NCBI GenBank assembly: GCA_021298895.1 | Contig: JAJTHK010000090.1 | Coordinates: 1 to 35,491, forward strand | Source: Luteolibacter sp. | GTDB lineage: Bacteria; Verrucomicrobiota; Verrucomicrobiia; Verrucomicrobiales; Akkermansiaceae | Length of the DNA: 35,491 nt | Reading direction: 5' to 3' | Part shown: positions 253-35,370 of the stretch, piece by piece | Numbering within the stretch: the first letter of the stretch is position 1 | Layout: every line of letters starts with the position of its first letter | The notes under the pieces: model-generated | What the model was told of the DNA's origin: nothing | The model's database searches: none | Seen by the model: the letters and a program-made list of their open reading frames with translations, nothing else | Position numbers and translations under genes: made by a program

Positions 253-822
253 CTACGTGCTTTGATAAACCAACTGCTTGCTCCACTTTGCCACCATGCG
301 CATCATGGAGGGTTCGGTGGTGAGTGTTTTCACTCCATTCAATTTCACCCATCGCAGGTCGTGTGACTCTTCACTAACCGTAAAATCCAGGCAGCCGTTG
401 GCGCGGAGAACATAGCGGACATCGTAGTGAAAATGCGCAGGGTCTCCCTTGCGTTCTGGGATGAGGTGGATATCGATATCGAAAATACCTGAGCTAATGT
501 GAGTTAAATCTGTTAGACCGGATTCTTCTTCCGCCTCTTTCATCGCGACGCCAAGCACATCGCTTTCGCCATCGGCGTGACCACCTAACTGCAGCCATCG
601 ATCCAGTTTGCGATGATGCGTGAGCAAGACTTCACAGCCTGTTGCATTCACGACCCAAGCAGATCCGGTGATGTGGCCAGTCGCTAGAGAGCGCTCAAAA
701 CAACGAGGTTCCGATTTTACGAAGTTGGTGAATTCACGGATCACCTCTGCTTCTTCCGGATGACGCAGAGCGTATTCTGAAAGTTGGTTGAGAAGTGATT
801 GTCGATGCACGGGGCGGATCAT
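253..822 (-). CDS. Nudix hydrolase
   Basis: Predicted 189-residue soluble hydrolase of nucleoside-diphosphate-linked compounds; the substrate cannot be read from sequence. The Nudix box is visible as GGHADGES followed, at the usual spacing, by KEAEEESGL, which keeps the catalytic glutamates. The first consensus Glu appears as Ser if the box is registered on the second Gly, and the usual Arg is Lys. The preceding GHITGSAWVVN and LTHHRKLDRWLQLGG blocks are typical of a common bacterial Nudix subfamily with a helical N-terminal extension. The open frame runs further upstream, to 957, but that would overlap ppdK and include the ppdK terminator. The ATG at 822, just after that hairpin, is therefore chosen. 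No clear ribosome binding site precedes it. Confidence 0.85.
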   Translation of the reverse strand: MIRPVHRQSLLNQLSEYALRHPEEAEVIREFTNFVKSEPRCFERSLATGHITGSAWVVNATGCEVLLTHHRKLDRWLQLGGHADGESDVLGVAMKEAEEESGLTDLTHISSGIFDIDIHLIPERKGDPAHFHYDVRYVLRANGCLDFTVSEESHDLRWVKLNGVKTLTTEPSMMRMVAKWSKQLVYQST

Positions 823-834
823 GTTCAGGTATGA

Positions 835-880
835 TAAAAAAGCAAACCGCCTCTTCCAGAAATCTGAAAGAGGCGGTTTG
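835..880 (-). terminator. intrinsic terminator of ppdK
   Basis: Bases 844-855 and 868-879 form a perfect 12-bp GC-rich stem (AAACCGCCTCTT with its complement) around a 12-nt loop. On the minus strand it is followed by a run of T from 841 down to 836. It lies 40 nt beyond the ppdK stop codon and between ppdK and the Nudix start. Confidence 0.9.
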
Positions 881-919
881 TGATTTTGATGATTCGACGT
901 TTCAGAAACGTCGCTCTGA

Positions 920-3724: not shown

Positions 3725-3861
3725 CGTAATTATGATTGTCGGGTTGGATAGCGCACCTTGATAACACGAAACAGAAAGTCCCGAATGTCCTCGGCGCGGG
3801 GCGGCAGAATAGCTAGGGATGCCTTGGTGTCAATCGACCAATTACCTCTAAAAGAAGGAAT

Positions 3862-4707: not shown

Positions 4708-4774
4708 ACCTGAAAGTTTCCAATGAAAGTTCGTAAACGCAAGCGCCGATACAGCTTATGTAACTGGATTTAGC

Positions 4775-6667
4775 TCAAGCTACCATCCGAACCATCTCGG
4801 GAATGGGTGCTCCAATCGCTTCCGCGGTAGCCCGTAACAATTCGATCTCCAAATCGTCGACCTTGCCATCATCGACAACGACTAATGAACAAAGGCGCAG
4901 GATCTGTTGTTTCACTAGGGGTGTGGAAGCATTGATTTGACTCAAAGCCTCTGCGACATGGCCCAGACCGACTTCGGTCTTATATGGCTCGCGCCCTGTG
5001 TGCTCACGGTATTCTTGAAATGCTTTATCTAACACCCCCTGCCCTCCTGAAATTTTTCCAAAGGCAGATAAAATATTCATGACCTCTGCTTCGAGTTCTA
5101 TGATTTTCCGGAATTTCATTTTAGGAACGGCGACCAATCCCAAACCAATTTCTACATGTCTGCGGATGACTTGCTGCAGCATAAACTCAAACATGTCGAT
5201 TTGTCCGTCCGCCTCGATCAACACTTGTGTCAGTGCAATAAATTCATGTGCTTCATCGACACTCATGCGCCTTAACCAAGCCAAGGAAAGATCCACCATG
5301 GTTAATTTTTCGACAGATTTTTTCTGCGCCAACTTTTCACTCCATTCAATCACTTCGCTAATTTGTAACGAATTATATCCACGAGAGATTAAAACCTGCT
5401 GGACTGCTTGGACATCGTGCTGATTCTGCCCGATCAATAATCCCAGCAACAACGATTTGGCCTGATCTTTGGAGAAATTACCGCTTTCATTTCCTATCAA
5501 TTCATCTGTCTTACTGAGTTCAGGCACTTCGGAATCGTCATCCATGCCAACGGATGAATCACTCTCAACTTCTTCTTGAACCTGACCAGCAAAGCCCATC
5601 GCTCCATAAAACTCCTGCTGACTTTTCACAGGTTTCGCTTCCAACATCACACCATTCCAACTCGGATCGATCGCTTTAATTCGCTGACTGAGAGGCGGAT
5701 GAGTTGCCATCAATGAACTCAAGCTGCTACCAGCAAAAAACATGTGTCGGGCTTCTGCAGCCGCAGGCGCAATGATGTGGCCGTGCTCTGCAAAACCACC
5801 GATCTTTTTCAACGCTCCCGATATTCCATCTGGCAATCGAGTAAACTGTACGGCCGAGGCATCTGCCAAGAATTCACGTTGCCGTGAAATCGCAGCTTGG
5901 ATCATGCGTGCAAAAAGAACTCCAACTGATCCAACCAACCAAAGAACCAACCCTGCGGCTAATATGGCAATAATCAAACCGCCACCATTTTTTGAATTTC
6001 GTGAACCACGGAAATGCCGCAGCGATTCCAGAAGAAAGCGACCTATGACTGAAACCATCACCAATCCAAAAATCCATCCCATCAGGCGGATATTCAGTTT
6101 CATGTCACCATTGAGAATGTGACTGAACTCATGCGCGATCACACCTTGTAGCTCCGAACGATTCAAGCGCTCCAGAGTTCCACGGGTCACTCCTATCACT
6201 GCGTTGGCAGGATCTGTTCCCGCAGCAAATGCATTGATTCCAGGCTCTTCATCCATGATCCACACCTCTGGAATCGGAACTCCTGAAGCGATCGCCATTT
6301 CTTCCACCACATTCAACAATCGTCGCTCATAATGATTCCTCGTATCCGGCTCAACGAGTCTACCTCCCAAATTTTCCGCCACCACTTTTCCACCACCTGA
6401 AAGTTGTGAAAGCTTCGTGAGGCTACCAATAAAAATCACACCTCCAACTAAAACCGTGGTCCATAACAACAGCTCAGGATTCCAAAGACCTAACTGACTA
6501 ACTTCTGTCGCAACATAGATACTATGTTGATCAGGGCTACTCATTTGCAAGGCGATCGTAGCGCAGACATAAATCACCAAGATCACGCCGATGACAGCCA
6601 GCGCAAACCACAAGACCAGCAAGCGGCTGGATTTTCTAGCACGTTCTTGTGCCTCGAAAAAGTTCAT
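4775..6667 (-). CDS. M48 (HtpX-like) membrane metallopeptidase with C-terminal TerB-like domain
   Basis: 630 residues. Two N-terminal transmembrane helices (about 15-40 and 68-85) precede a zinc peptidase domain with HEFSH at 179-183. The third zinc ligand is Glu265 in REFLADASAV. A Gly-rich loop and another pair of helices lie between 195 and 255, as in HtpX. Residues from about 400 onward form an acidic helical region ending in a domain with EADGQIDMFEF and DDGKVDDLEIELL, typical of TerB-like modules that sense or bind metal. The family degrades misfolded membrane proteins. The fusion to TerB is known from larger M48 proteins but less common than plain HtpX. It lies 22 nt after lemA on the same strand, so the two form an operon. 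Confidence 0.9.
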   Translation of the reverse strand: MNFFEAQERARKSSRLLVLWFALAVIGVILVIYVCATIALQMSSPDQHSIYVATEVSQLGLWNPELLLWTTVLVGGVIFIGSLTKLSQLSGGGKVVAENLGGRLVEPDTRNHYERRLLNVVEEMAIASGVPIPEVWIMDEEPGINAFAAGTDPANAVIGVTRGTLERLNRSELQGVIAHEFSHILNGDMKLNIRLMGWIFGLVMVSVIGRFLLESLRHFRGSRNSKNGGGLIIAILAAGLVLWLVGSVGVLFARMIQAAISRQREFLADASAVQFTRLPDGISGALKKIGGFAEHGHIIAPAAAEARHMFFAGSSLSSLMATHPPLSQRIKAIDPSWNGVMLEAKPVKSQQEFYGAMGFAGQVQEEVESDSSVGMDDDSEVPELSKTDELIGNESGNFSKDQAKSLLLGLLIGQNQHDVQAVQQVLISRGYNSLQISEVIEWSEKLAQKKSVEKLTMVDLSLAWLRRMSVDEAHEFIALTQVLIEADGQIDMFEFMLQQVIRRHVEIGLGLVAVPKMKFRKIIELEAEVMNILSAFGKISGGQGVLDKAFQEYREHTGREPYKTEVGLGHVAEALSQINASTPLVKQQILRLCSLVVVDDGKVDDLEIELLRATAEAIGAPIPEMVRMVA

Positions 6668-7364: not shown

Positions 7365-8732
7365 TTAGCGCCCACGTCCACGTCCACCACCCCACATGGA
7401 TTTACCGCTGAGAAGACGCTCTTTCATTTCAGCAGAAATCGAATCCGTCGAATTGATGTAATCCGTAGCCGCCGCTTTATCTTCCTGCATCCAGCGTGCA
7501 GCAACGATACCTGTAGAGCGGTTACGAGATCCTTCATCACTAATCATTCCTGCGACTTCAACAAGCTCTGCAGGTGTACTCGTACGATTGCTCCAAATGT
7601 AGCTTTCCGCCGCGCGATCTTTTACCTCAGGTGTCGTTTGGGTTTTGATGAAATTCAGCGCAGCCGCCGAATCCGCAGATGCCCACACTGGCATCACCTC
7701 ACGCATCGACTCACGCTTCGCTGCATCATCCAATGAATTCAACCAAGTCATCGAGCCTTGCACATCCGTCTTGGCATAATTTTTGGCAACCATAGGCACG
7801 GCATCCGCACGGGCTTCAAGATCGGTCATTTTTCCCAACTCAGCAGCTGCTAATGCTGGATTACTACTGGCAAGCCCCTCGACGGCGGCAGACATCGCTG
7901 CAGCACGATCTCCTTCCGGAAGGCCCGCAACCCAAGACGCAGCTTCATTGAAATCTTTCTTCGCCCACTGCTTAGCAATACTTTGATAGGCTTCACCTCG
8001 TGCATCCTCTTTCATCTCTCCAGCCATGCTTGCAGCTTTGATGGGATCGGTCTTTGCTACTTCAGAAACCACCGTGCTCATCGCAGCTGAACTATTACTC
8101 GCTAAACCCGATGCCCAAGCCATGGCTCCTGCTGGATCCTGCTTCGCCCACTCACCTGCAATGATTTCAGCCGGCCCTTGCGTACCCATACCGCCTCGAC
8201 CCGCGCCACCCATCATATTCATCATCGCGAATTGAGCGGGATTCTCAGAATAATATTTAGCCGCATTCACTGGATCCGTACTTGCCCAACCTTGCAGGAC
8301 AGTCGGTCTAACAAACGCACCACCGAATCCCATGGTATCGGTGTAAGCCATAGCAGCTGTCGGATCGACTTCCGCCCATTTTCCAAAAAGCAGCACTCCG
8401 GCAAGAATGCGTTCATTGAATGGCAGTGCTTCAAGCTTATCCGCCTCTGAAGAAAATTGCGCCGGGCTGAGATTGGTATAAAAATCTAACAATGATTGAA
8501 TTCGATTGCTCTGACCAGGCTGACGGTAGATATCATCCAAACTACGAACTTTCTTATCATCCTTGGAATCGCGTGAGGAATCCAAACTTCCGCGATCCGA
8601 ACCACGAGTGCGCATTTGATTTTCAATGGTAGAGATGTCGGATTCGGCTCCACCTCCAGAATTCCCGACCCCAAAGCCCACACCCAAACCAATTGCCAGC
8701 GCAGCACCAGGAAGTAATAAATTTGTTTTCAT
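7365..8732 (-). CDS. exported helical-repeat protein (degenerate WAxxDPxxA repeats)
   Basis: 455 residues. A hydrophobic N-terminus (MKTNLLLPGAALAIGLGVGFG) acts as signal peptide or membrane anchor. It is followed by a Gly/Ser/Asp-rich linker, then about nine degenerate repeats of roughly 28-38 residues. Their core reads small-x-x-W-A-x-x-D-P-x-x-A-hydrophobic; examples are GKWAEVDPTAAMAY, QGWASTDPVNAAKYY, GEWAKQDPAGAMAW and KQWAKKDFNEAASW. The protein ends in GGGRGRGR. It is probably an alpha-solenoid outside the cytoplasm, a type frequent in Verrucomicrobiota with no known function. The frame extends upstream to 8774, but the extended -10 at 8789-8781 would start transcription near there, so the ATG at 8732 is preferred. 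Confidence 0.75.
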   Translation of the reverse strand: MKTNLLLPGAALAIGLGVGFGVGNSGGGAESDISTIENQMRTRGSDRGSLDSSRDSKDDKKVRSLDDIYRQPGQSNRIQSLLDFYTNLSPAQFSSEADKLEALPFNERILAGVLLFGKWAEVDPTAAMAYTDTMGFGGAFVRPTVLQGWASTDPVNAAKYYSENPAQFAMMNMMGGAGRGGMGTQGPAEIIAGEWAKQDPAGAMAWASGLASNSSAAMSTVVSEVAKTDPIKAASMAGEMKEDARGEAYQSIAKQWAKKDFNEAASWVAGLPEGDRAAAMSAAVEGLASSNPALAAAELGKMTDLEARADAVPMVAKNYAKTDVQGSMTWLNSLDDAAKRESMREVMPVWASADSAAALNFIKTQTTPEVKDRAAESYIWSNRTSTPAELVEVAGMISDEGSRNRSTGIVAARWMQEDKAAATDYINSTDSISAEMKERLLSGKSMWGGGRGRGR

Positions 8733-8780
8733 ATGATACGTCTTAAACACCGAATCATTCCGAATGTTGCGCAAATATGA

Positions 8781-12352: not shown

Positions 12353-13171
12353 CTAATCTCTTTCCACTCTCATCGCGAATCTTTCGATCTCGAGACATCT
12401 CCCCGTTGCGCTATCTGCCGCAACAATCACGCCACACATTTTGACGGCACCTTTTGCAATAGGAAATCGCGTCGGCATACCTGATTTAAAACGCCAAACC
12501 ACAGATTCCACGCAACGTCCAAGCACAGATTCTTCAGGTCCGCACATTCCGGCATCCGTTAAATATCCCGTGCCGCCCGGAAAAATCGTTTCATCTGCCG
12601 TTTGAACATGAGTGTGAGTCCCAACCACCAAGGTCGCTTTCCCATCTAACATCCTACCCATCGCAATTTTCTCGGAAGTGGTCTCCGCATGAAAATCCAA
12701 AACGATGACATTCACTCCTAAGGCTTTCAATCGAGCAATTTCATCTTCGACTGCAATAAAAGGATTTTCCAGAGGTGGTTGAATAAAACTTCTGCCCTGA
12801 GCTTGAATAACCGCCACTTTGCATTTCCCTGTTTCCAATACGACACTGCCATTTCCCGGAGTCCCCTCGGGATAATTGATGGGTCGCAGCAAACGGGGTT
12901 CGGTTGGAAAATAATCCACAATCTCTTGCTGATCCCAAACATGATCTCCTGTGGTAATCACTGCAGCCCCAGCACGCAGCAAATCGATGCTAATCTTTGA
13001 AGTGATCCCCTTACCTGCGGCCGCGTTCTCACCATTCACAATGACAAAATCAATCCCATGCTGCTCACGGATCTTGCCCAAGCTTTCGATGACTGATTGC
13101 CGCCCAGGCTCACCTACAATATCACCAAGAAATAAAATCTTAATGCGCTCAGCTGTCGGTTTGTTATTCAT
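12353..13171 (-). CDS. YmdB-family metallophosphoesterase
   Basis: 272 residues matching the TIGR00282/YmdB family of calcineurin-like phosphodiesterases; Bacillus YmdB hydrolyses 2',3'-cyclic nucleotides and cAMP. Metal-binding blocks in order are LFLGDIVGEPGR (N-terminus), VIVNGENAAAGKG, TTGDHVWDQQE, DFHAETTSEK and VGTHTHVQTADE. All expected Asp, Asn, His and Glu ligands are present. The product is cytosolic. It is convergent with bactofilin and lies downstream of the secreted HEAT/TPR gene's opposite end (57 nt), so it is probably transcribed alone. Confidence 0.93.
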   Translation of the reverse strand: MNNKPTAERIKILFLGDIVGEPGRQSVIESLGKIREQHGIDFVIVNGENAAAGKGITSKISIDLLRAGAAVITTGDHVWDQQEIVDYFPTEPRLLRPINYPEGTPGNGSVVLETGKCKVAVIQAQGRSFIQPPLENPFIAVEDEIARLKALGVNVIVLDFHAETTSEKIAMGRMLDGKATLVVGTHTHVQTADETIFPGGTGYLTDAGMCGPEESVLGRCVESVVWRFKSGMPTRFPIAKGAVKMCGVIVAADSATGRCLEIERFAMRVERD

Positions 13172-19407: not shown

Positions 19408-20535
19408 TTAACTCCCTCGCATTGCAAAAATCGATCCTGATTTAGCTCCTGTTGCGCTTTTCAATGGTTTTGCCGTTCTTTCCTTCTGTCTTTCGAACTG
19501 CGACTGATACCTCGCTGCCATTCCTTTCACATAATCCTCACTCCCTAGCGCAATCCCTTCGCTGAAACACTTTATCCGCTTGCGGATTTCTAACATGGGT
19601 AAAAATAAGAAATTCTCCACCGCAACTTGTTCAGCCTCTACTTGTGCTTCGGTATAACCTTTTCTTCGCGAGCCTTCAGCAACCGCGCCTTCTCCATACA
19701 GCCATTTTCTGTAATAGCCATGTGCCTTTGTATTCCAACTGTCTTGAGCAACTTCCAACACCTTGCAAAGCCCTCGCCGTGCGCGTTTGCTCCCGCCCAC
19801 TGCCTCTCCATAACCACTCCACGCATACATCGCAGGATCCCGCACAATCCCTGCCCGCACCGGATTCAAATCGATATAGCCCGCCATCGTCTGCAGTGCC
19901 TCACCCGTTTCCACCAGCACACTTTTAAATCGATCCATCCACAGCGTCCCACGTCGACTCTTCTGCTTGTTATACCAACGACTGAACCGCTCCTTGAGTT
20001 CTTTGACAAACAAACTCAGGTCGCAGAAGCGTTGTTGGAATCGCTCTAATAACACCTGCGCCGCGTCCTCCTCTTGGCGATTGCGTAACTCGGTGATTTC
20101 ACCTCGGAATTGCGCGATGAAAGCTTTAGAATACACCAATGAAAGATGCTCGAAGAATCTTTCCTCTCCCTCCTTGCCTTCGAAGCGTTTCAGCCAAATT
20201 TTTTGTTCAGGGACTTTGAGTAAAATGTGAAAATGATTGTCCATGATCGCGTAGGTCAGGATTTCGACCCCAGAAAACGTGGCCATCCGCCACATCATTC
20301 TCCGTAGCGCCTCTTTCTCAATCGAACCGAGTAAAAACTCGCCATTCACCACCCTCGACATCACGTGGTAGCACGCCGAGCCATCCGTCATACGCATCCG
20401 CTTGCGCCCTGAGAACCCTTTAGCACGCCGAATCTGCCCCAACCTCCGCCCAGTTTTCATCTCCGCCAACTCCAGGGGAGACCACACCTTTTTCTCCTCA
20501 AAATCCCTTTTTTTATCAACTTTTACCTTATTCAC
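19408..20535 (-). CDS. Y1/HUH transposase, REP-associated (RAYT) type
   Basis: 375 residues. The conserved core shows YHVMSRVVNGE, AIMDNHFHILLKVPE with the HUH histidines, and a helix LFVKELKERFSRWYNKQ carrying the candidate catalytic tyrosine. It is followed by GTLWMDRFKSVLVE and YIDLNPVRAGIVRDP, all hallmarks of the TnpA_REP family. It is longer than many RAYTs because of a roughly 50-residue basic N-terminal extension and a 90-residue C-terminal tail. It starts at GTG. These single-strand transposases mobilise or maintain REP-like palindromes; one such palindrome lies just upstream at 20580-20614. It appears intact, with no frameshift. Confidence 0.9.
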   Translation of the reverse strand: MNKVKVDKKRDFEEKKVWSPLELAEMKTGRRLGQIRRAKGFSGRKRMRMTDGSACYHVMSRVVNGEFLLGSIEKEALRRMMWRMATFSGVEILTYAIMDNHFHILLKVPEQKIWLKRFEGKEGEERFFEHLSLVYSKAFIAQFRGEITELRNRQEEDAAQVLLERFQQRFCDLSLFVKELKERFSRWYNKQKSRRGTLWMDRFKSVLVETGEALQTMAGYIDLNPVRAGIVRDPAMYAWSGYGEAVGGSKRARRGLCKVLEVAQDSWNTKAHGYYRKWLYGEGAVAEGSRRKGYTEAQVEAEQVAVENFLFLPMLEIRKRIKCFSEGIALGSEDYVKGMAARYQSQFERQKERTAKPLKSATGAKSGSIFAMRGS

Positions 20536-20741: not shown

Positions 20742-21623
20742 TCACCGAAAGTGATCCCAGCCGCCTTTTAGCTCATCTCCCTCTCCGGGTTTTACCAAGC
20801 GTCCTATCTTGGTTAGCTTCAGCGCAGGAAATTTCTGCTGCCATTCACGCTCTAGGCCTTGTCCTTCTGGAAATGTGAAAAGTAATTCAAAATCTTCTCC
20901 ATCCTCCAGTGCCTGTTTCACATCGCAACCCTCGCACAGAGGCATCGCGGAAAGATCTAACTGAAATCCGCAGGATGATGCTTTTGCTAATCTTGGCAAA
21001 TCCCGAGCGACCCCGTCGGAAAGATCCATCATAGCGGTCGGTTTGAAATGTTTCACCAACCAACGTGCTTGATCGAGCCTAGGAGTGAAATCGAGATGTT
21101 TCCCTGCTAGCGATCCACCCAGCACACCCGTCACCCAGATCGCATCGCCGAGGTTTCCTCCTGATCTCATCACCACATTCCCCCGCTCCACCCTGCCCGT
21201 CGCTGCTATGGAAATAACTGCCGCCGAACCCACTGGAACCCGGCATGTTTCACCTCCTACTAAAACCGCGCCATAACGCTCAAAACACGTTCCCATCCCA
21301 CGATAGAAATTTTCAACCCAATCCAAAGTCATCGAAGCAGGCAATGCGAGGGTGACAAGAAATCGTTCTGGAGTTCCACCCATTGCCGCGAAATCAGAAA
21401 CCACCCGCGCCACCGCCTTCCAGCCAACCCTTCTTGCATCCGCATCTCTAACAAAATGAACACCCTCCACTAAAGCATCGGTTTTCAATAAAACCAAATT
21501 CATTCCCCCATCATCCATCACCGCACAATCATCGCCAGGCCCTTCCTCGGCTTGCCCTGTCGGCACCAATCGGACCAACCTTGCGATCAGTTCATCTTCT
21601 CCCATTCCTTCCAAAGGTTTCAT
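20742..21623 (-). CDS. thiL: thiamine-monophosphate kinase
   Basis: 293 residues, slightly short for the family (about 310-325). It phosphorylates thiamine monophosphate to thiamine diphosphate, the last step of cofactor synthesis. Visible blocks are MGEDELIARL at the N-terminus, GPGDDCAVMD (nucleotide and Mg binding), LKTDALVEGVHF, RVVSDFAAMGG, LVGGETCRV and MMDLSDGVARDLPRLA. The C-terminal GEDFELLFTF is also present. The start overlaps the stop of the upstream CPBP protease gene by 4 nt (ATGA), so translation is probably coupled. No TPP riboswitch is visible upstream. Confidence 0.95.
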   Translation of the reverse strand: MKPLEGMGEDELIARLVRLVPTGQAEEGPGDDCAVMDDGGMNLVLLKTDALVEGVHFVRDADARRVGWKAVARVVSDFAAMGGTPERFLVTLALPASMTLDWVENFYRGMGTCFERYGAVLVGGETCRVPVGSAAVISIAATGRVERGNVVMRSGGNLGDAIWVTGVLGGSLAGKHLDFTPRLDQARWLVKHFKPTAMMDLSDGVARDLPRLAKASSCGFQLDLSAMPLCEGCDVKQALEDGEDFELLFTFPEGQGLEREWQQKFPALKLTKIGRLVKPGEGDELKGGWDHFR

Positions 21624-22477
21624 TGAAGCGTTTGCTCAGGAATATAACCAAATCGCGTTAATAACTGCACAGTGACCGTGGCCGCGTTGAAAAGGAAATG
21701 CGCGCCGATGGGTGCCCAGATGGATCCTGTCCGTTCATATAAAAACACCAGTACTACGCCGAAGATAAACAAAGGCAGCAAAGCAGCTAAACTTCCGTGT
21801 GCTGCAGAGAAGATCAAGGCCGATACCAAAGCAGCAATCCATATTCCGTTAAATTTTTTCAAGGTAGGATAAATATACCCACGGAAAACTACCTCTTCAC
21901 AAAGCGGTGCCACAATAACAGCTGTGATCGACATCAGGATTAAAACACTTGTATCTTCAGTTGTCTGCAACAAATCAACCGAATCTTGAACAATTTCCAC
22001 TCCCAAGTTTTTCATCAATCCCTCGTAACCCATTGCGTAGAGTCCCGCAAAACACGCCCACATTGTTAGAACCGTAACGGGTGCGATAAGTGCAACCCAC
22101 GGCCATTGTCTCCATTTCAAACCCAACCATGTGACTGGGTGAATCCGACTTGCCAGCACCGCTATAACCAATCCAGCGAAAAAAAACTGTATACCGATAT
22201 TGAATACCAAATCCCACCCAGAAACCACATAATCCTTCATCTTATGGGCAAGCATCGCATTGGTTAGAACCATCAGATAATAAAATCCCACAATGATACC
22301 CACCACGAGCAGATCGAGCTTCCGATAATACCAATCTGAAATTTTACCCAATGGCAAAGCTGGCGGCAGACTTCTATTTTGTGCACGTGAGTACATCTTA
22401 GCCAAGGCAGCTCCTAAAAATATAGCTACCGCCAAGCCATATGAGGCATTCATGCTAATGACAGTTACAAGATCCAT
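21620..22477 (-). CDS. CPBP family intramembrane metalloprotease
   Basis: About 285 residues with seven or eight hydrophobic segments. The CPBP (Abi/CAAX-protease-like) active-site motifs are in order: EEVVFRGYIYPTLKK (EExxxR), FSAAHG (FxxxH) and GAHFLFNAATV (HxxxN), all in the C-terminal third. The family includes Rce1-like prenyl-protein proteases and bacteriocin-immunity proteins; the substrate here is unknown. The start is uncertain: an in-frame TTG at 22522, the ATG at 22477 chosen here, and an ATG at 22453 are all possible, none with a Shine-Dalgarno. It forms an operon with thiL (4-nt overlap) and is divergent from the metal-efflux locus. Confidence 0.87.
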   Translation of the reverse strand: MDLVTVISMNASYGLAVAIFLGAALAKMYSRAQNRSLPPALPLGKISDWYYRKLDLLVVGIIVGFYYLMVLTNAMLAHKMKDYVVSGWDLVFNIGIQFFFAGLVIAVLASRIHPVTWLGLKWRQWPWVALIAPVTVLTMWACFAGLYAMGYEGLMKNLGVEIVQDSVDLLQTTEDTSVLILMSITAVIVAPLCEEVVFRGYIYPTLKKFNGIWIAALVSALIFSAAHGSLAALLPLFIFGVVLVFLYERTGSIWAPIGAHFLFNAATVTVQLLTRFGYIPEQTLQ

Positions 22478-22540
22478 CGTGGCTAATAACTTAACCCCTA
22501 CTTCGCTCCAGCGCCACCGCAAAGTTTCTGGTATTAAAAA

Positions 22541-24285: not shown

Positions 24286-24318
24286 TAAAACCTCTCTTAA
24301 TAAATCATTTCTAACATC

Positions 24319-25431
24319 ATGAAATTCATCTACCTATCAATTTTTTTAACGAGCAACGCCTTCGCTGCCACGCCTCCGCGCAACGAAACCACTGTACCAC
24401 TCGGCGAAGCTGGAGTTAAAAATCTAGGCATCGAAACCATCGCCGCTGAGGAATCCACTTTTGAACAAAACATTTCTGTGCTCGGTGAAATCGATCACAC
24501 TTGCGAAAGCCATTCCGTTCTCTCTAGCCGTATCCCGGGTAAAATCATTCAAGTCGGAATTCATAAAGGTGAGTTCGTCAAGAAAGGTGATGTCTTACTG
24601 CGCATCGAAAGCCGCCAGCCAGGTGATCCACCACCGATCATCGATCTGAAAGCCCCAGCCGATGGACTTGTGATTAAATCAGTAGGGCACCTCGGAGCAC
24701 CTGTTGAGCCAGAGTCTACTCTGATGGAAATCATGGATATTTCTAGCGTCTGGGTTATCGCTCGCGTCCCGCAACATCATGCCGCGATTTTAAATGAAAA
24801 TCTAACAGCAATAATTCGCATACCTTCAGTCGGCGATAAAATTCATAAAACCAAATTTTTACGACTCGGCACAGAAACCACAAATTCATCTACCGTGGAT
24901 GCAATATTTGAAATCCAAAATCCTGATTATAAAATACGTCCTGGTATGAGAGCTGAACTATCTCTGATTACATCAAAAAGAGAAAACGTTTTCAGTATCC
25001 CCCGTGCTGCTTTGCTGGGAGATCGCGCAAATCGCTTCGTTTTCATCAAAGACTATGAGCTAGAAAATACTTTTGTACGCACTCCAGTTGTTGTCGGAGA
25101 AATAAGTGATGAACGAGTTGAAATCATATCCGGTCTATTCCCAGGAGACGAAGTTGTGATTAAAGGCGCATACTCATTAGCTTTTGCTGGTAAGGGTAAT
25201 GTCTCATTGAAAGAAGCACTGGATGCCGCACACGGCCATCCTCACAACGAAGATGGGACGGAGATGACAGCAGAAGAAATCGCCGCTTCCAATAGTGTTC
25301 AAGACCATGGCCACGATCACCGCTCTAGCGATTCGATCGTTATGTTTCTCAGCATCATTAGTGGTGTGCTTCTGCTGCTACTGATCGCCAGTGTGTTTCT
25401 CCGCAAACCGCAAAATGGAAACGCTGCCTAA
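24319..25431 (+). CDS. CzcB-like membrane-fusion adaptor with His clusters and a C-terminal membrane helix
   Basis: 370 residues. A signal peptide (MKFIYLSIFLTSNAFAA) is followed by a lipoyl/barrel-sandwich segment (RIPGKIIQVGIHKGEFVKKGDV, LKAPADGLVIKSVGHLGAPV). Beta-barrel and membrane-proximal domains then run to about residue 290. This is the periplasmic adaptor of an RND efflux pump. Unusually, the C-terminus continues with HGHPHNEDG and DHGHDH clusters, then a strong transmembrane helix (about 339-361) and a short basic tail. Ordinary CzcB/CusB proteins lack a C-terminal helix. The adaptor is therefore probably anchored at its C-terminus, with its His clusters close to the membrane and the pump. 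Confidence 0.88.
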   Translation: MKFIYLSIFLTSNAFAATPPRNETTVPLGEAGVKNLGIETIAAEESTFEQNISVLGEIDHTCESHSVLSSRIPGKIIQVGIHKGEFVKKGDVLLRIESRQPGDPPPIIDLKAPADGLVIKSVGHLGAPVEPESTLMEIMDISSVWVIARVPQHHAAILNENLTAIIRIPSVGDKIHKTKFLRLGTETTNSSTVDAIFEIQNPDYKIRPGMRAELSLITSKRENVFSIPRAALLGDRANRFVFIKDYELENTFVRTPVVVGEISDERVEIISGLFPGDEVVIKGAYSLAFAGKGNVSLKEALDAAHGHPHNEDGTEMTAEEIAASNSVQDHGHDHRSSDSIVMFLSIISGVLLLLLIASVFLRKPQNGNAA

Positions 25432-25450: not shown

Positions 25451-28400
25451 ATGCTCAATCATCTCATCCGCTTCTCCTTGAAAAACCGCGCGCTGATCAT
25501 TGCGACAGCGTTGCTGGTCATTTTCATGGGCGCACGCACCGCGACTGAGCTTCCAGTTGAAGTTCTACCAGATATGACCAAACCCACGGTCACGGTTTTA
25601 ACTGAAGCCCCGGGCCTCGCTCCTGAAGAGGTCGAAACCCTCGTCACTCGTCCGCTTGAAAACACCCTACTCGGCATCGGCGGACTCGATAGACTCCGCT
25701 CCAACTCCGATGTCGGACTCTCTCTGGTATTCGTCGAATTCGCATGGGGCACTGATATTTATAAAGCCCGCCAACTTGTCCAAGAACGCCTGCAAGCTGC
25801 TAAATTGCCTGATAACACCCGTTCTGGAATGACTCCGGTTTCCTCGCTCATGGGTGAGATTCTTTTAGTTGGCCTGAAGTCAGAAGACAACTCCATCGCT
25901 CCGATGGATCTGCGCACCTTCGCGGAGTGGACGGTCGCACGACGTTTGCAAAGCATTCCGGGAGTTGCGGAAGTCCTGGCCATCGGTGGTGGCGTCAAAC
26001 AAGTCCACGTCGAGCCAGACCCTCTCAAAATGCAAGCAGAGGGAGTTTCGTTAGATGAGTTAGAAAATGCCGTCACTCTATCCGCCGGCAATGCGACCAG
26101 TGGCTACCTCCAATCTGGCCCACGCGAAATCATGGTGCGCAACCTCGCGATGACTGCGGATCCAGCAGACATCGCCGCATCCAATGTAAAGCGTATCGGC
26201 GACCGCAACATCACCATTGGCGACGTTGCTGAAGTGAAATTCGGTGTCGCCACCATGCGCGGCGACGCAGGGATCGCTTTCGAAGGCGATGAAAAAGAAA
26301 CTCCGGGCATCATTCTCAGCATCGATAAAGCACCTGGTTTTGATACCCTGAAACTTTCTGCTGATATCGAGAAAGCTCTGGCTGATTTACGACCCAGCCT
26401 ACCCGCCGGAGTCGAGGCGGAAATCCTTTTCCGCCAAGGTGACTTCATCGATAGCGCCATCGGCAACCTCAAAGAAGCTATCCGTGATGGTGCGATCATG
26501 GTCACGGTTATCTTGCTGCTTTTCCTACTCAATCTCCGCACTACCTTTATCACTCTAACAGCTATACCGCTGTCGTTTGCTATCACCCTGCTAACTTTCA
26601 AATGGTTTGGAGTTAGTGTCAACAGCATGACTCTCGGCGGTATCGCAGTTGCGATCGGGATGGTGGTGGATGACGCCATTGTCGACGTTGAAAATGTTTT
26701 CCGTCGTCTGAAAGAAAACGCCTCACTCCCCCTACCAAGACCTCGCCTAGATGTCATCGCATCCGCTTCCAGCGAGGTTCGATCCAGCATCCTCTACGCC
26801 ACCATACTGATCATCTTGGTGTTCGTTCCGCTCTTAGGTCTGGCAGGCCTCGAAGGCAGACTTTTCCAACCCATTGCCATAGCAACGATTGTCAGCATGA
26901 TCGCCTCCTTTGTGGTATCGCTCACGGTCATTCCTGTTCTCTGCTCGTTTTTACTTAAACCCAGAGAAGACAAGGAGCACCGCGACGGCTTTTTGGTAAG
27001 ATCACTTAAATCCTTCACCAAAACCACTTTCCTCCGCGCTGCATTCGGTGCTCCACTGGTCGTGATCGGTGTGGTCATCATGCTCGTGGTTGGTGCCGCC
27101 ATGCTTTATCCGAGCATGGGGAAAGAATTCCTCCCCACCTTCAACGAAGGCAGCGCAACCATATCCTTCGCCAGCGCACCGGGTAGTTCTCTCAAACAAT
27201 CCAACGAAGTCGGCGAAACCGCAGTCAAACTTCTGTTAGAGATAGACGAGGTGAAATCCGTCGGTCGCCGTGCCGGACGTGCCGAGCGCGACGACCATGT
27301 CATGCCGGTTTCAGTTAATGAGTTCGATGTTGAATTCCACAAGGGCGGACGCGACCGCGAAGTTGTGTTTGCAGAAATCCGCGACAAGCTAAAAACCATT
27401 CCGGGCACTTTCGTCAACGTCGGCCAACCGATTGGTCATCGTCTCAGCCACATGCTCAGTGGCGTTTCGGCGAAGATCGCAGTGAAAATCCACGGACCTG
27501 ATCTAACGACTCTCCGCCGCTTGGGCACACAAGTCAAAGAAGCCGGACAAACCATTTCCGGACTCACCGATGTGAACCTCGAAGCCCAAGTCCCCATTCC
27601 TCAAATCCGCATTGAGGTCAACCGAGTCCGCGCTCGCACCGAAGGACTCTTACCTGGAGAAATCAATCAACAAGTCTCCCGTCTGTTAGGTGGATCATTG
27701 CTCGGCGAGCTTCGTGAAGGAGAAACCACGGTAGACCTCGTTTTACGATTACCCGAATCATGGCGCACCTATCCGGAAAAAATTAGCGAATTACTTATTC
27801 AAACACCAGACGGACGGCATATACCCCTTTATCTGGTCGCAGATATATACGAAGTCACCGGCCCCAACGTTATCAATCGCGAAAACGGCCAGCGTCGTAT
27901 TGTCATCGGAGCGAATACGGATGAGCGCGACCTCGAGTCACTGGTGAAGAACTGGCAACTTGCCGTCGCCGATCAAGTGAAACTCCCGCCAGGCTATACC
28001 TTGCGCTTTGAGGGTGAGTATCTCGCTCGTCAACAGGCCTCAAAACGTATTCTCATCCTTTTCGGAATCGTCGCTGTGGTCATCGCCGTTCTTCTAACAG
28101 GTTACTTCCGCAGCGTTTCGCTTTCACTCCAAGTGATGCTCAATCTTCCGCTCGCACTTGCCGGAGCATTGGCTTTCACTTGGTGTAAAATCGATAACAT
28201 CAGCATCGCCACATTGGTCGGTTTCATTGCGGTGGGTGGCGTTGCCGCACGAAATGGAATCATGATGATTTCCCATTACCTGCATCTCATGCGTCATGAA
28301 GGTGAAACTTTCGGGATTGCCCTCATTACTCGTGGCACGCTTGAACGACTCGTACCCGTGCTCATGACCGCCCTCTCCGCAGGCATTGCGCTTATTCCGC

Positions 28401-29146: not shown

Positions 29147-29152
29147 TTCTTC

Positions 29153-30775
29153 TTACCTGCGACCCTTTTCATAGAGTTGCTTCGCGATACCTTCGGTCAA
29201 CTCATACAGCACACCTTGGATGGGGACGGAAATAGGAATTCTACCACCATCTGCAGTCCCGGGGAAAACAGCCTTCAACTCTGGTGCGCGATCAAACGCT
29301 GTTTGCATCAAGGTGATTTTAAATTCGCCTTCGTAGCGATAGGACTGGCTTAGCTTTTCCGCTTCGTATTCTAAAATCCGCCTGTTTATACTCATGATAG
29401 CCAACTTACCGAAGAGTGACTTATCATCATCTGTTTCAAAACCCGATTCACGATCGTTGGAGTCCTTACCTGCCTCAAGCAGCGAGATATTGATATCTTT
29501 TGCTAAATCGTCTTCCTTAACAGTCTCACCAAAGAAATCCGAGCCATCATCCAATACCAACTCCTCATCCGCCTTTGGTTTTCTAACAAACATATCGCCG
29601 ATCAAACTCATTTTATCATCCGCAAACATTTTTACGTCAGATATCATCAATCCTTTTTCCTGAAATTTTAACTTAAAGGATCCTGTTTTGAAATCCATTC
29701 GGCGATAATTGTTATTAGCATCCACGACAGTTAGAGCCCTGAGTAATAATATCCTGTCGCGCAAGGTGATCACATCGCCATTTTCCAAAATCACTTCTCC
29801 GTCAAAGGTAATTCCCTCCGTGGTATTAGTTGACCCAGCTACCTCAAAATTTCCCGATATCTTTCCATCTGCATAAGCCCTTGCCACTACTGGCAACATG
29901 CTCGAAATACTCATCGACTTCATTTTCATTTTTCCAGAAACTTTAGGAGTGTAACCGGCAACAATATCGAATTCTTCCAAGACCAGCAGCCCGCCATCTT
30001 TACTGAAAACCGCTTCTTCGAATTTGATTCCTTGCTTTGATACCAAGACATCGAGTCTTTCGATCTGAAGTTCTCTAAGCCAATTTTGTGAAAAAGTTCC
30101 TCCACGAAAACTCAACTTCCAACCATCGCCCTGAGGTATCGCCTTCATATTGCTCGATGTGATTGATCCTCTGGAGCGCTCTGTAAAACCCCATCTCATC
30201 GACATATTCGCCACATGAATCGCATCAGGCCTCAAATTACCCATTTCCTGAAACAGCACACCTGCAATCGCCTGAGCGCTCTCCTCTGAGTCCGCGCCAG
30301 CCCTTAGCGAGAGATTTGCCTTAGATATTTCAACAAGCCCCGGCTTCCAAGTCCTTCCAAAATCCACAAAAAAATCTCTCTGACAGACCAAATTTGAAAG
30401 CTCCAAGCCCGTAAAAAATGAGCTTTTGTCCGCAATCATTGCCAGCCGAAAGATCGTAAATTTGCCCCGCTCGCGACTTACCCCTTGGATCTCAATTTCA
30501 TCCGCAGCAAATTTTTTCTCTACCTGATCACTGAAAAGCTTAGTGAATTTCTCCTCTCCCGTGAATTTCACGACCCCCACCCAGACCAAACCCCCAAAAA
30601 TCAGAAAAATGACCAAACGGAGCGTCAAATGTACAAAATGTAGCATCAGCCCGGGCTTCTTCCCCCCTAAAAACAGGGAATATTTTAGCTGAAACCAAAA
30701 TCCTTGCTTGAAAATCCAATAGGTCAGCCGTTGGTTAAAGTTTTGCCATTGCTCTGAATCGATATTTCCGCTCAT
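29153..30775 (-). CDS. AsmA/TamB-like single-pass envelope protein
   Basis: 540 residues. After about 45 cytoplasmic residues comes one transmembrane helix (about 48-69, LHFVHLTLRLVIFLIFGGLVWVGVV). The long remainder is beta-rich and presumably periplasmic. Segments such as KMKMKSMSISSMLPVVAR, DGKISGNFEVAGSTN and DGEVILENGDVITLRDR have the alternating pattern and placement of the AsmA-like C-terminal region. AsmA-like proteins bridge the envelope and help move lipids. I see no detailed match, so only the architecture is assigned. It is divergent from scpA, with 76 nt between starts. Confidence 0.55.
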   Translation of the reverse strand: MSGNIDSEQWQNFNQRLTYWIFKQGFWFQLKYSLFLGGKKPGLMLHFVHLTLRLVIFLIFGGLVWVGVVKFTGEEKFTKLFSDQVEKKFAADEIEIQGVSRERGKFTIFRLAMIADKSSFFTGLELSNLVCQRDFFVDFGRTWKPGLVEISKANLSLRAGADSEESAQAIAGVLFQEMGNLRPDAIHVANMSMRWGFTERSRGSITSSNMKAIPQGDGWKLSFRGGTFSQNWLRELQIERLDVLVSKQGIKFEEAVFSKDGGLLVLEEFDIVAGYTPKVSGKMKMKSMSISSMLPVVARAYADGKISGNFEVAGSTNTTEGITFDGEVILENGDVITLRDRILLLRALTVVDANNNYRRMDFKTGSFKLKFQEKGLMISDVKMFADDKMSLIGDMFVRKPKADEELVLDDGSDFFGETVKEDDLAKDINISLLEAGKDSNDRESGFETDDDKSLFGKLAIMSINRRILEYEAEKLSQSYRYEGEFKITLMQTAFDRAPELKAVFPGTADGGRIPISVPIQGVLYELTEGIAKQLYEKGRR

Positions 30776-32241: not shown

Positions 32242-32758
32242 TTTGAAAAACGACCCACAAGCATCGCATTCTAACAGACGGCAAATTTTTCATGTCGCTT
32301 GCCTCGTCGCTGCGTGCTTGAATGTTACATCGTGCTATGATCCGAAGGACAAGCCCATCCCACCTCTCAAGCCAGCGGCCGGAAAAGACGAGACTTCTGA
32401 GGTCCTCACCGCAACCGCAATCACTCCGGGAACCGTCACCCGCATGCCGCTCGGGACTCTGTATCAACTCCATCAAAGTAAGGCAGCACTGATCTTCGAT
32501 GTGCGCCCTCTCATTTTTTACAAAATGGGACACATCGATGGTGCAATCAGTTTTCCAAAAGCTGATTTCGATAAATCCATCGATAAACAAGAAACGCTGA
32601 TTAAAAACGCGATTAAAAATCAAATACCCGTAGTGCTTTATTGCACAGATCTTGCTTGCCCAGATGCAATCACGGTCGCTACCCGACTATCCGAGCGAGG
32701 TCATAGCGTATCCGTCCTCCAAGGCGGCTATGAAGCATGGAAAGCTGCCACCGAATAA
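32216..32758 (+). CDS. rhodanese-domain lipoprotein
   Basis: 180 residues. The N-terminus has basic residues, a hydrophobic core (FHVACLVAACLNVTSC) and a lipobox VTSC, so the protein is probably a lipoprotein anchored outside the inner membrane. A single rhodanese domain follows: LIFDVRPLIFYKMGHIDGAISFP, then VVLYCTDLACPDAITVATRLSERGH with the presumed catalytic Cys in CTDLAC, and VLQGGYEAWKAA. It may handle sulfane sulfur or serve as a binding module. The ATG at 32216 lies within the FKBP gene; a TTG at 32243 would give a shorter leader and no overlap. Confidence 0.8.
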   Translation: MSNSSKSLNLKNDPQASHSNRRQIFHVACLVAACLNVTSCYDPKDKPIPPLKPAAGKDETSEVLTATAITPGTVTRMPLGTLYQLHQSKAALIFDVRPLIFYKMGHIDGAISFPKADFDKSIDKQETLIKNAIKNQIPVVLYCTDLACPDAITVATRLSERGHSVSVLQGGYEAWKAATE

Positions 32759-32790
32759 ACCAATCTCTTATCATCATCTAAAATTCTAAC

Positions 32791-33108
32791 ATGAATTCAT
32801 TCTCAAACGTCACTGTCGATTCCATCGCAAATATTTATTTCGATGGCAAAGTTGTATCTCACACCATCCACCTTGCTGATGGCTCACGCAAAACCCTCGG
32901 TCTCATCGCGCCGGGTTCATTCTATTTCGGCACAGCCGCCGCAGAACTGATGGAAATCACCGCGGGTTCTTGTGAGGTCACCATCAAGGATTCTGGCAAA
33001 ACCGAAACGTACGCAGCGGGTAGTTCATTCCATGTTCCAGCCAACAGCGGTTTCGACATCAAGGTCAGCGAAGGTCTTTGCCAATACATCTGCTCGTTTC
33101 TTTCCTGA
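32791..33108 (+). CDS. ppnP: pyrimidine/purine nucleoside phosphorylase
   Basis: 105 residues matching the PpnP (formerly YaiE, DUF1255) cupin family in length and pattern. Visible are the KVVSHTIHLADGSRKTLG block, the PGSFYFGTAAAELMEITAGS stretch, and SSFHVPANSGFDIKVSEG near the C-terminus. It splits nucleosides with phosphate into base and ribose-1-phosphate, for purines and pyrimidines. The ATG is immediately preceded by TTCTAAC, one of the window's TCTAACA copies. No Shine-Dalgarno is present. Confidence 0.93.
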   Translation: MNSFSNVTVDSIANIYFDGKVVSHTIHLADGSRKTLGLIAPGSFYFGTAAAELMEITAGSCEVTIKDSGKTETYAAGSSFHVPANSGFDIKVSEGLCQYICSFLS

Positions 33109-33148
33109 GCGTTTAGCGTATCGAAGAACCTATAGCGGCAACCATCCA

Positions 33149-33877
33149 ATGAACCCATTGTTTATTAAATGGATCGCAACATGCTTAATGACTGGAGCAC
33201 TGAGCTCCTGCCATTTCCTTACCATGCCTCCTGCACCAGAACCAGCATCGTCTCTGGTGCAAAGAAACACCGTAGCCAAATACACCCCGGAGCGACCTCC
33301 TGAAGTACAAGTCTGGATGCTCGCCGACAAGCTACACACCGGCATGGTGTTTCCTTACGATTGGTTGTTAGAATCCGGTTTCAATCCTCCGCAAAATTTT
33401 CCTGATTGCAAATACGTCACCCTCTCATGGGGTGATCGCAATGCCTATGTGAATAAACGCTGGCTGAAACCAAGCGAAGTCTTTTACGCGATCTTCATGC
33501 CCTCTCCAGCCGTCATGGAATGTATCCCTATCCATGGAAATGTTGCCGAGGTATCACCGCATCAACAAATTTTCATGAAATCCATCCCTCGTGAACGCGG
33601 CCCTTACGTCGCTTCCTTTTTGAATCACTGCAGCGTTACAGACTCTAGCGGCAAACCCAGTATCGCCGGCCCATCGAGCTGGGGTAATGGTGTTTTAATT
33701 GATTCCCCTCAATCCTACTATTTCCCCAGAATCTGCAACGTCTGGACTGGTCACGCACTCGAAGCTTGTGGCGCAGAGATCAATCCCGTCATGTCCATTC
33801 ACCGAGATCTCATCATCAAAGAAATCGAACAAAACGGCTTCACCCAAGTCTGGGACGGCTCAGGCTTAAAACAGTAA
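33149..33877 (+). CDS. DUF2459-like lipoprotein
   Basis: 242 residues. A lipoprotein signal (CLMTGALSSC, lipobox LSSC) is followed by a Pro-rich linker. The main domain then has VWMLADKLHTGMVFPYDWL and YVTLSWGDRNAYV, which resemble the H-T and WGD blocks of the DUF2459 (TIGR02117) family. The function of that family is unknown. The C-terminal part contains FLNHCSV, RICNVWTGHALEACG and a charged end. The frame opens earlier, at 32972, across ppnP, but the ATG at 33149 starts the clean signal. Confidence 0.7.
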   Translation: MNPLFIKWIATCLMTGALSSCHFLTMPPAPEPASSLVQRNTVAKYTPERPPEVQVWMLADKLHTGMVFPYDWLLESGFNPPQNFPDCKYVTLSWGDRNAYVNKRWLKPSEVFYAIFMPSPAVMECIPIHGNVAEVSPHQQIFMKSIPRERGPYVASFLNHCSVTDSSGKPSIAGPSSWGNGVLIDSPQSYYFPRICNVWTGHALEACGAEINPVMSIHRDLIIKEIEQNGFTQVWDGSGLKQ

Positions 33878-33975
33878 ATAATTAAAAAACATAACGATAT
33901 AACTCAGTTTTTATCACGTATCCTTAAAAAATCATCTTACCTTTGCTCCTTCCTGCTAGATAAACTCTTATTATC

Positions 33976-35370
33976 ATGACACTAAAACAAAAACATCTCA
34001 TCGCCGCTATCTGCGCCCTTATCTCCCTCTCCGCCCAGGCTGCCGTGCGTAAACCCAATTTCATTTTCATCATCGCCGATGACCATCGCTGGGATGCCAT
34101 GGGCGTCGTCCAACGCGAACAAGGTGAAAACGCCCGCTACCCATGGTTCGAAACCCCTAATCTCGATCGTCTAGCCGCCGATGGCGTCCGCATGCGCAAT
34201 GCCTTCATCACACACTCGATCTGCTCACCGGGTCGCGCCAGTTTCCTCACTGGCCAATATACCCACGTCAACGGCGTGATGGATAACAATACTCCGTTTC
34301 CTGAAACGGCTGTCACCCACGCCAACTTACTCCGCGATGCCGGCTACCGTACCGCCTATTTCGGAAAATGGCACATGGGCGAGCAAAAAGGCCCACGCCC
34401 GGGCTTCCAACACTCGGCCAGCTTCATCGGCCAAGGTATCTACCAAGATTGCCCCTTTGAAATCAACGGAGTAATGACCGAAACCAAAGGTTGGGTCGAT
34501 GACGTCACTACCGACCTCGCGATCTCCTGGCTCAAGCAAAGCGATAAAACCCAACCCTTCAACATGGTCATCGGCTTCAAAAGCCCACACAACAAACGCG
34601 GCATGAACAACCTACCCGATCGTCTGCGCAACCTATACGAAGGCAAAACCACCAAGCCCACCCCCAACTGCAAGCTTGCAGCCATCTATCACAAACCTCT
34701 CACCCCCGAAGACGACGGCAAAGAACGCGGACTCTCCGCAAACTCGGTCCACCTCGATTACCTACGCCACGTCAAAGGCATCGATGAAAATCTAGGAAAA
34801 CTGTTAGATACCCTCGATACTCTCCAACTCACCCAAGACACCGTAGTTGTTTACTCAAGTGATAACGGATATTTCCTCGGCGAACGCGGACTCGGCGACA
34901 AACGCGCCCTCTACGAAGAAGGCCTGCGCCTGCCATTTATCGTCCGCTACCCACGGATGTTTGCTAAAGGTAAATTGGTCGATGAAATAGTTTTAAACAT
35001 CGACCTCGCACCCACCTGGCTCGACCTCGCAGGCCTCCCCGCCAACGCTGGCATGCAAGGCAAAAGTTTCAAAGAACTCGCCGCCGGCAAAAAGCCAGCC
35101 GACTGGCGCACGTCCTTCCTTTCCTACTACCGCAAAGAACTCGGCGACACCCCAACCTGCGTCGGCGTCCGAACCGCAACCCAAAAACTCATCCACTACC
35201 ACGGCAAACCCGATCTAACAGAAGCCTACGATCTGGCCAAAGATCCCTACGAACTCAATAACCTCGCCAAAGACAACGCTTTCACAGCACCACTAAGAAA
35301 AGAGATGAATCGCTTGGCGAATGCGGTGAAGTATCCGTTGCCTGAAGAGGTTGTGGTGCCGTTGAAGTGA
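33976..35370 (+). CDS. secreted arylsulfatase-family sulfatase
   Basis: 464 residues with a signal peptide (MTLKQKHLIAAICALISLSAQA). PNFIFIIADDHRWD at 28-40 supplies the metal-binding Asp pair. SICSPGRASFLTGQ contains the CxPxR signature with Cys83, the residue converted to formylglycine. FGKWHMG and FKSPHNKRG follow, and VYSSDNGYFLGERGLGDKR provides the late metal-binding Asp-Asn. The enzyme probably removes sulfate from a polysaccharide or glycan outside the cytoplasm, a common verrucomicrobial lifestyle trait. No anaerobic or FGE-type maturase is adjacent. The gene appears complete and monocistronic. Confidence 0.94.
   Translation: MTLKQKHLIAAICALISLSAQAAVRKPNFIFIIADDHRWDAMGVVQREQGENARYPWFETPNLDRLAADGVRMRNAFITHSICSPGRASFLTGQYTHVNGVMDNNTPFPETAVTHANLLRDAGYRTAYFGKWHMGEQKGPRPGFQHSASFIGQGIYQDCPFEINGVMTETKGWVDDVTTDLAISWLKQSDKTQPFNMVIGFKSPHNKRGMNNLPDRLRNLYEGKTTKPTPNCKLAAIYHKPLTPEDDGKERGLSANSVHLDYLRHVKGIDENLGKLLDTLDTLQLTQDTVVVYSSDNGYFLGERGLGDKRALYEEGLRLPFIVRYPRMFAKGKLVDEIVLNIDLAPTWLDLAGLPANAGMQGKSFKELAAGKKPADWRTSFLSYYRKELGDTPTCVGVRTATQKLIHYHGKPDLTEAYDLAKDPYELNNLAKDNAFTAPLRKEMNRLANAVKYPLPEEVVVPLK

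Follow-up and report, generated by a model that had tools for sequence, protein, structure and literature searches.

The window analyzed here, the whole 35,491-nucleotide stretch of Luteolibacter sp. contig JAJTHK010000090.1, is contig C48 of the draft genome G000 (2.76 Mb, 190 contigs, 89% complete), and the element in question is the heptamer TGTTAGA. Twenty-four copies occur in the window, all at positions given in a first-pass annotation of the sequence, compared to 2.4 expected (standard deviation [sd] 1.55); 100 dinucleotide shuffles never gave as many. Among all 7-mers of the window, TGTTAGA is also the most over-represented one (24 versus 1.7, order-2 Markov model). The data presented below define it as a dispersed, strand-symmetric, sharp, and lineage-specific word at the level of DNA.

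At the left of the window, a plus-strand copy (511..517) is antisense in an open reading frame (ORF) at 253-957 (-), and minus-strand copies read in sense in an M48 peptidase ORF at 4775-6667 (-) (5028..5034), twice in an ORF without Pfam match at 7365-8774 (-) (8307..8313 and 8485..8491), and in an ORF at 12353-13171 (-) (12645..12651). The AAA_26 ORF at 17231-17881 (+) contains three copies, two of them sense (17460..17466 and 17856..17862, +) and one antisense (17782..17788, -), followed by two sense copies in the RsmB/NusB ORF at 17909-19141 (+) (18507..18513 and 18834..18840, +). Two sense copies on the minus strand fall in a Y1 (IS200-like) transposase ORF at 19408-20535 (-) (19589..19595) and in an AIRS ORF at 20742-21623 (-) (21447..21453), and a plus-strand copy (22064..22070) is antisense in an Rce1-like ORF at 21620-22522 (-). 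One intergenic copy (24310..24316, -) separates an outer-membrane efflux ORF from the HlyD-type ORF at 24319-25431 (+), which itself holds an antisense copy (24801..24807, -). The AcrB-type ORF at 25451-28579 (+) has antisense copies at 26554..26560 and 28093..28099 (both -) and a sense copy at 27234..27240 (+). Further copies are found in sense in an ORF at 29153-30775 (-), which was scanned and has no Pfam match (29582..29588, -); antisense in a rhodanese ORF at 32216-32758 (+) (32270..32276, -); in the intergenic DNA after the latter (32785..32791, -); and in sense in a DUF2459 ORF at 32972-33877 (+) (33366..33372, +). The sulfatase ORF at 33976-35370 (+) carries one copy in each orientation, sense at 34802..34808 (+) and antisense at 35214..35220 (-). 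No RNA families or tRNAs were found in the window.

Sixteen of the 24 sites lie in genes recognized by a simple gene caller, with eight in sense phase 1, one in sense phase 2, six in antisense phase 2, and one in antisense phase 0. Of the eight sites outside called genes, six fall in listed ORFs and were placed by hand (12645, 19589, 21447, 22064, 29582, and 33366); the Y1, AIRS, Rce1-like, and DUF2459 ORFs among these have a Pfam match. Within the window alone, no fewer than six ORFs escaped the caller. With hand placement, the four phases hold 11, 3, 7, and 1 copies, plus the two intergenic sites, and the phase count of the first-pass annotation is therefore right.

The excess extends to the whole genome. 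G000 contains 742 forward and 743 reverse copies of TGTTAGA (1485), compared to 138 and 136 (274) of the reversed word. In 20 sampled stretches (249 kb) taken together with the window, about 285 kb in all, TGTTAGA ranks first among 7-mers, with 156 copies versus 17.9 expected from an order-3 Markov model; at most 22 of these lie in 57 kb of intergenic DNA, an upper bound given the ORFs overlooked by the caller. Synonymous codons were then shuffled inside each gene, 200 times for G000 and 100 times for each relative. The called genes of the G000 sample (198 genes, 228 kb) contain 130 copies, compared to 14.0 in the shuffles (sd 3.2, maximum 25). Two of the six codon phases would introduce a stop; the remaining four are all enriched in G000 (59 versus 6.9, 11 versus 1.1, 13 versus 4.1, and 47 versus 1.9). 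All four phases are likewise raised in the relatives G102 (174 versus 14.9), G141 (41 versus 5.8), and G022 (10 versus 0.5), and the genes of motif-free G009 hold one copy versus 0.3. Sense and antisense copies within genes number 70 and 60 in G000 and 118 and 56 in G102; a preferred orientation within reading frames is reported for uptake words in an excerpt of PMC2346458.

Since the excess is genome-wide and strand-symmetric and surpasses, in every stop-free phase, what synonymous shuffling predicts, it is well supported as a DNA-level signal rather than a codon or protein bias, as originally claimed. The two outcomes named beforehand as speaking against that claim were a genome frequency at the Markov level and confinement to one codon phase. 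Neither was observed: the sample has 156 copies versus 17.9, and within genes all four stop-free phases are enriched.

Among 195 genomes of the family, 52 contain TGTTAGA at least 1.5 times as often as the reversed word and 143 fall below this line, which serves as a ranking aid only, the reversed-word control being unmatched in composition. For this tally, 108 rows were counted and 87 (genera g19, g20, g24, g25, g30, g31, and g32) were assessed by eye, none of them reaching 1.5; genus g19, with its many small genomes, shows no excess by eye. Summed over the 52 motif-bearing genomes, there are 26137 forward and 26677 reverse copies. Density peaks in G102, whose 3.0 Mb hold 3313 copies. The motif is patchy in the window's own genus (17 of 44 genomes) and present in 11 of the 12 genomes of genus g26. 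Outside the family, judged by eye, one of 22 genomes of the order has an excess (G051, 2323 versus 825 for the reversed word), and none of the 256 genomes outside the family in a sample of the phylum reaches 1.5-fold, the top ratio being 559 to 445 (G345). Forward and reverse counts are unusually uneven in three genomes (G080, 390/661; G107, 689/951; G020, 745/950), a possible strand effect.

The genome groups (family f1, genus g1) are linked to names only via identical rows for the competence protein ComEC: records titled Akkermansiaceae bacterium and Luteolibacter sp. share theirs exactly with members of the window's genus. The two nearest relatives of the G000 ComEC come from metagenome-assembled genomes titled Prosthecobacter debontii (75 and 76% identity), and its relatives more generally, titled Akkermansiaceae, Verrucomicrobiaceae, and similar, place G000 in Akkermansiaceae or a nearby group of Verrucomicrobiales, which bears out the phylum Verrucomicrobiota named in the first-pass annotation. 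Loci surrounding ComEC relatives agree with the genome counts, with 17 copies of TGTTAGA versus 0.3 in 12 kb (L209) and 15 versus 0.3 in 19.5 kb (L216). On a ComEC tree, motif state changes 21 times, compared to a mean of 30.5 and a minimum of 25 in 200 shuffles; the TGTTAGA (T-type) state is clustered, yet often gained or lost. States were assigned by cut-offs of our own choice (120 copies per Mb, or Poisson P < 0.01), and seven of 111 rows with too little DNA for a state were dropped. Eighteen rows duplicate another, and pairs of equal state favor clustering, while three duplicate pairs whose states differ (short locus versus whole genome) work against it.

The word has a short, sharply bounded shape. 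The consensus is yTGTTAGRw, and 155 aligned G000 sites give yTGTTAGA followed by A or T. Flanks of G000 sites are near background from about three bases off the core and flat to 25 bases on each side, and those of G102 are likewise near background over the 7 to 8 bases examined. The search for an extended consensus suggested by the first-pass annotation thus yielded yTGTTAGRw, with no longer repeat around TGTTAGA in either genome. In G102, where TGTTAGA occurs 187 times in 144 kb versus 5.2 expected (order 2), words altered in the first, third, or last letter mostly remain enriched (TGTTAGG, 67 versus 4.0; TGATAGA, 53 versus 11.8; TGCTAGA, 27 versus 10.6), and those altered in one of the inner letters (G, T, A, and G) do not. 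Apparent depletion of neighboring words should not be over-read, because the motif itself inflates their Markov expectation.

Individual sites turn over. When G000 sites were aligned to motif-bearing relatives, four of 27 alignments were intact versus 3.7 expected, and two of 36 versus 4.2 in alignments to motif-free relatives; the expectation was computed over every 7-base window in these alignments, and one G000 site may count in several of them. Conserved regulatory or binding sites are not supported by these chance-level values. Between the closest relatives, one-step gains and losses of TGTTAGA are seen, and one site kept the word while its flank changed. This turnover indicates that copy number is maintained, rather than individual sites, which fits a drive exerted by uptake.

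Genes for DNA uptake are present. The ComEC of G000, on contig C15, scores above the Pfam and NCBIfam ComEC_N-term cut-offs and below the ComEC_Rec2 cut-off, and the genome also encodes DprA, a type IV pilus secretin of the Amuc_1098 family, PilB- and PilC-type genes, and a type II secretion cluster. Eleven pilin-type N-terminal matches were found in G000, among which no receptor candidate stands out. Among the genomes searched, the secretin is matched in 22 of 22 (21 above cut-off), DprA in 17 of 17, and ComEC in 53 of 59.

Some relatives may use altered forms of the word. Samples of G001 and G013 have no clear TGTTAGA excess; CTGCTAG ranks first among the 7-mers of the former (20 versus 1.0) and is raised, though not top, in the latter (8 versus 1.0), and in the G017 sample the leading 7-mer is CTGATAG (22 versus 3.5). 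In this survey, G027 and G034 consisted of masked letters only and were left out, and several samples were too short to inform. Whole-genome counts, in which CTGCTAG and CTGATAG were compared between genomes only and not with a reversed word, suggest T-type genomes (G000, G016), C- and A-type genomes (G001, G013, G011), A-type genomes (G017, G015), and mixed types (G010, G029, G034). G001, G013, and G011 form one clade on the ComEC tree. CTGCTAG and CTGATAG are likely dialects of the word, judging by these counts.

Given how the copies are distributed and how dense they are, the short and sharp core, and the existence of near-variants in relatives, an uptake-type reading is preferred: we consider it somewhat probable that TGTTAGA serves as a genome-wide self-DNA tag of the kind represented by the DNA uptake sequence (DUS) and the uptake signal sequence (USS), independent of the two families known to possess them. 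In a simple model, TGTTAGA would be bound at the cell surface by a DNA receptor, for which a minor pilin of the type IV pilus is the likeliest candidate. DNA carrying the word would be pulled in preferentially, handed via ComEC to DprA and RecA, and recombined. Mutation in combination with biased uptake would raise the copy number and keep it high, with no single site being essential. Shifts in receptor preference could produce the T-, C-, and A-type variants, and where the preference was lost, the word would fade. Of the original proposal of an uptake-type signal, the dispersed DNA-level word stands, while the uptake role is still deduced from the same four features. More broadly, we see an even chance that natural transformation in this family of Verrucomicrobiota relies on a third code for recognizing self-DNA, one that evolved independently, comprises several dialects, and was lost repeatedly within the family.

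Several observations weigh against this interpretation. The pattern of strict inner and tolerant outer letters is clear only in G102; in G000 the only clear variant excess is that of TGTTAGG (43 versus 14.7), and G141 shows none. G000 contains about 4.5 times and G102 about 10.6 times the number of copies calculated at equal base frequencies. The fold excess is nearer to that of Escherichia coli Chi, given as 1008 versus 151 in an excerpt of PMC1939737, than to that of 10-mer uptake words. ComEC, DprA, and the pilus secretin also occur in motif-free relatives, so the presence of this machinery is not correlated with the motif and tells us no more than that uptake could take place; of the competence genes that the first-pass annotation had proposed to look for, ComEC and pilus genes are present in G000 but not discriminating. 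Motif-bearing G019 (874 copies) lacks a ComEC match, in a genome only 59% complete. No receptor was found: the ComP_DUS Pfam model matched in none of 59 genomes, a result that is uninformative because the controls were empty too.

The arrangement of the sites adds to these reservations. Inverted pairs are not in excess, with one pair within 60 bases among 227 G000 sites, and 28 close pairs in G102, 10 of them inverted, versus 27.0 of any kind expected by chance; an origin in inverted terminator pairs was rejected on the same counts. Inverted pairs often accompany DUS and USS, but are a secondary trait that uptake does not need. There is no TGTTAGA excess at gene ends. In G102, copies are clumped beyond random (coefficient of variation [CV] of gaps 1.28 versus 1.01). 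The longest motif-free stretch of the G000 sample (12.1 kb) contains, by eye, respiratory and repair genes, a content that speaks against a mobile island. In motif-free G004, three in-gene copies versus 0.4 match the top of 100 shuffles. Finally, a single codon phase accounts for most of the excess of the variants (17 of 19 for CTGCTAG in G001, 14 of 19 for CTGATAG in G017), and CTGATAG has no in-gene excess in G013 (3 versus 2.7). With this one-phase excess, the null result in G013, and the crude gene calling in these GC-rich samples, dialects are a likely reading and no more.

Among alternative roles, two survive best, each of them unlikely. TGTTAGA could be a Chi-like recombination signal at which RecBCD or AddAB stops degrading DNA, resulting in chromosomal enrichment. 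As a dispersed, asymmetric 7-mer in coding DNA with a fold excess of the order of E. coli Chi (an excerpt of PMC1939737), it resembles such a signal. Moreover, copies in G000 lean to the locally G-rich strand as defined by GC skew (131 of 227), whereas those in the densest genome, G102, are balanced (140 of 271), a weak test since the contigs are drafts whose direction to the origin is not fixed. In other bacteria, Chi words are rich in G and biased to one strand, which also argues against this role.

Similarly improbable is a function unrelated to uptake, with TGTTAGA bound by a chromosome-organizing protein or another DNA protein. The dispersal of the word over both strands and the absence of positional conservation would suit such a protein, as would the rarity of gaps shorter than 200 bases in G000 (13 versus 28.5, sd 4.8). 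However, such gaps are too many in G102 (96 versus 80.0, sd 6.3), and the motif is patchy within a single genus, as described above. Even spacing was not found in either genome: the gap CV of G000 is ordinary (1.04 versus 1.00), and the copies in G102 are clumped.

A word linked to methylation or restriction and kept abundant by a methylase is less likely still. An excerpt of PMC1939737 describes an abundant cyanobacterial palindrome containing a methylase site, which demonstrates that a methylase-linked word can become very abundant, and N6/N4 methylases are matched in 20 of 22 genomes searched, with four matches in G000. TGTTAGA, however, is not a palindrome. Furthermore, motif-bearing G227 (898 copies, 96% complete) has no PF01555 match and motif-free G031 has four, indicating that no enzyme of the PF01555 class tracks the motif; matches are present in motif-free G032, G004, and G009 as well. 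A methylase shared by motif-bearing genomes was not seen within this class and these 22 genomes.

The remaining two explanations are scarcely credible. That TGTTAGA is left over from, or marks the edge of, a dispersed repeat element, resembling repetitive extragenic palindromes or the target of an insertion sequence (IS), might be suspected from the IS200/Y1-type transposase gene in the window, but a longer repeat or mobile element is disfavored by the flat flanks in G000 and G102, including the 155 aligned sites with no conservation past about three bases, and many copies sit within ordinary genes. An artefact of codon-pair, amino-acid, or mutational composition could draw on the fact that the commonest phase yields the rare leucine codon TTA, 78 of whose 623 occurrences in called genes of the G000 sample fall within TGTTAGR, but, barring a gross failure of the gene calling, codon, codon-pair, or protein bias is ruled out by the synonymous shuffles, which all four possible phases exceed in G000 and G102, and single-letter neighbors at inner positions show no excess.

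Other repeats were encountered in the same DNA. The IS200/Y1-type transposase ORF of the window (19408-20535, -) has its own copy of TGTTAGA. The contig ends inside an array of the 7-base unit AATCAAC (35416-35491, 10.9 copies), and three other arrays start at or near a contig start. In the loci examined, 21 arrays with a 7-base unit have at least four perfect copies, compared to none of period 5 or 6, three of period 8, and four of period 9, in a count for which some loci overlap and adjoining arrays were taken separately; examples besides that of the window are L244 (1-98), L095 (1-35), L121 (14-97), L221 (15558-15655), and L237 (10050-10133), among others. A dense GAGACCTGA/TCAGGTCTC repeat family occupies L066 10234-13452 (G006), with 21 copies in about 3 kb. 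In the 22-kb locus L172 (DBTN01000033.1, Akkermansiaceae UBA1315), the palindrome ACCGGT occurs 61 times versus 10.2 expected, dispersed and not in tandem, and AACCGGTT occurs 18 times. The ACCGGT excess is found in no other scanned locus of at least 5 kb and looks like a separate word of one genome similar to HIP1, the abundant cyanobacterial palindrome mentioned above.

The first-pass annotation knew of no such motif in Verrucomicrobiota. This agrees with the literature: a search for uptake words in Verrucomicrobia, Akkermansiaceae, or Luteolibacter, or for TGTTAGA itself, gave nothing relevant to this phylum among the matches listed, with most subscription papers and preprints outside its coverage, and an excerpt of PMC12616744 (2025) names two proteobacterial families, Neisseriaceae and Pasteurellaceae, as the sole ones known to select DNA by such words. 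If the uptake reading is true, TGTTAGA would represent a third case beside these two, in a distant phylum, and would allow one to ask which features of uptake codes always recur. Matching motif variants with pilins could point to new DNA receptors, for which the 52 motif-bearing and 143 other genomes of one family offer a natural comparison. Such a code could also account for the way in which bacteria that are for the most part uncultured keep gene exchange among their own kind.

Compared with known systems, TGTTAGA shares abundance, dispersal, and lineage specificity with the HIP1-type palindrome, but the latter is linked to a methylase (excerpt of PMC1939737) and TGTTAGA is non-palindromic. 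The Chi sites of RecBCD and AddAB are short, asymmetric words dispersed in genes with a similar fold excess (same excerpt), in contrast to which TGTTAGA is not G-rich and has no strand lean in G102. The USS of Pasteurellaceae is likewise a dispersed word in genome-wide excess, with two types within one family (excerpt of PMC12616744); TGTTAGA differs in lacking AT-rich flanking segments within 25 bases and a bias towards gene ends (compare the excerpt of PMC2346458). The DUS of Neisseriaceae belongs to a different phylum and is a different and longer word, of 10 to 12 rather than 7 to 9 bases; TGTTAGA is not of the GCCGTCTGAA type given for DUS in the excerpt of PMC1939737, shows no excess of inverted pairs and no match to the ComP_DUS model (whose controls were empty), and has a putative role only. 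On the other hand, both are short, contiguous, and dispersed words present in about a thousand to several thousand copies per genome, with variants in relatives that retain a fixed inner core (excerpt of PMC3630211). The same source gives 943 to 5918 DUS per genome, a range that includes the 3313 copies of G102, and the Neisseria core CTG happens to lie in yTGTTAG if y is C.

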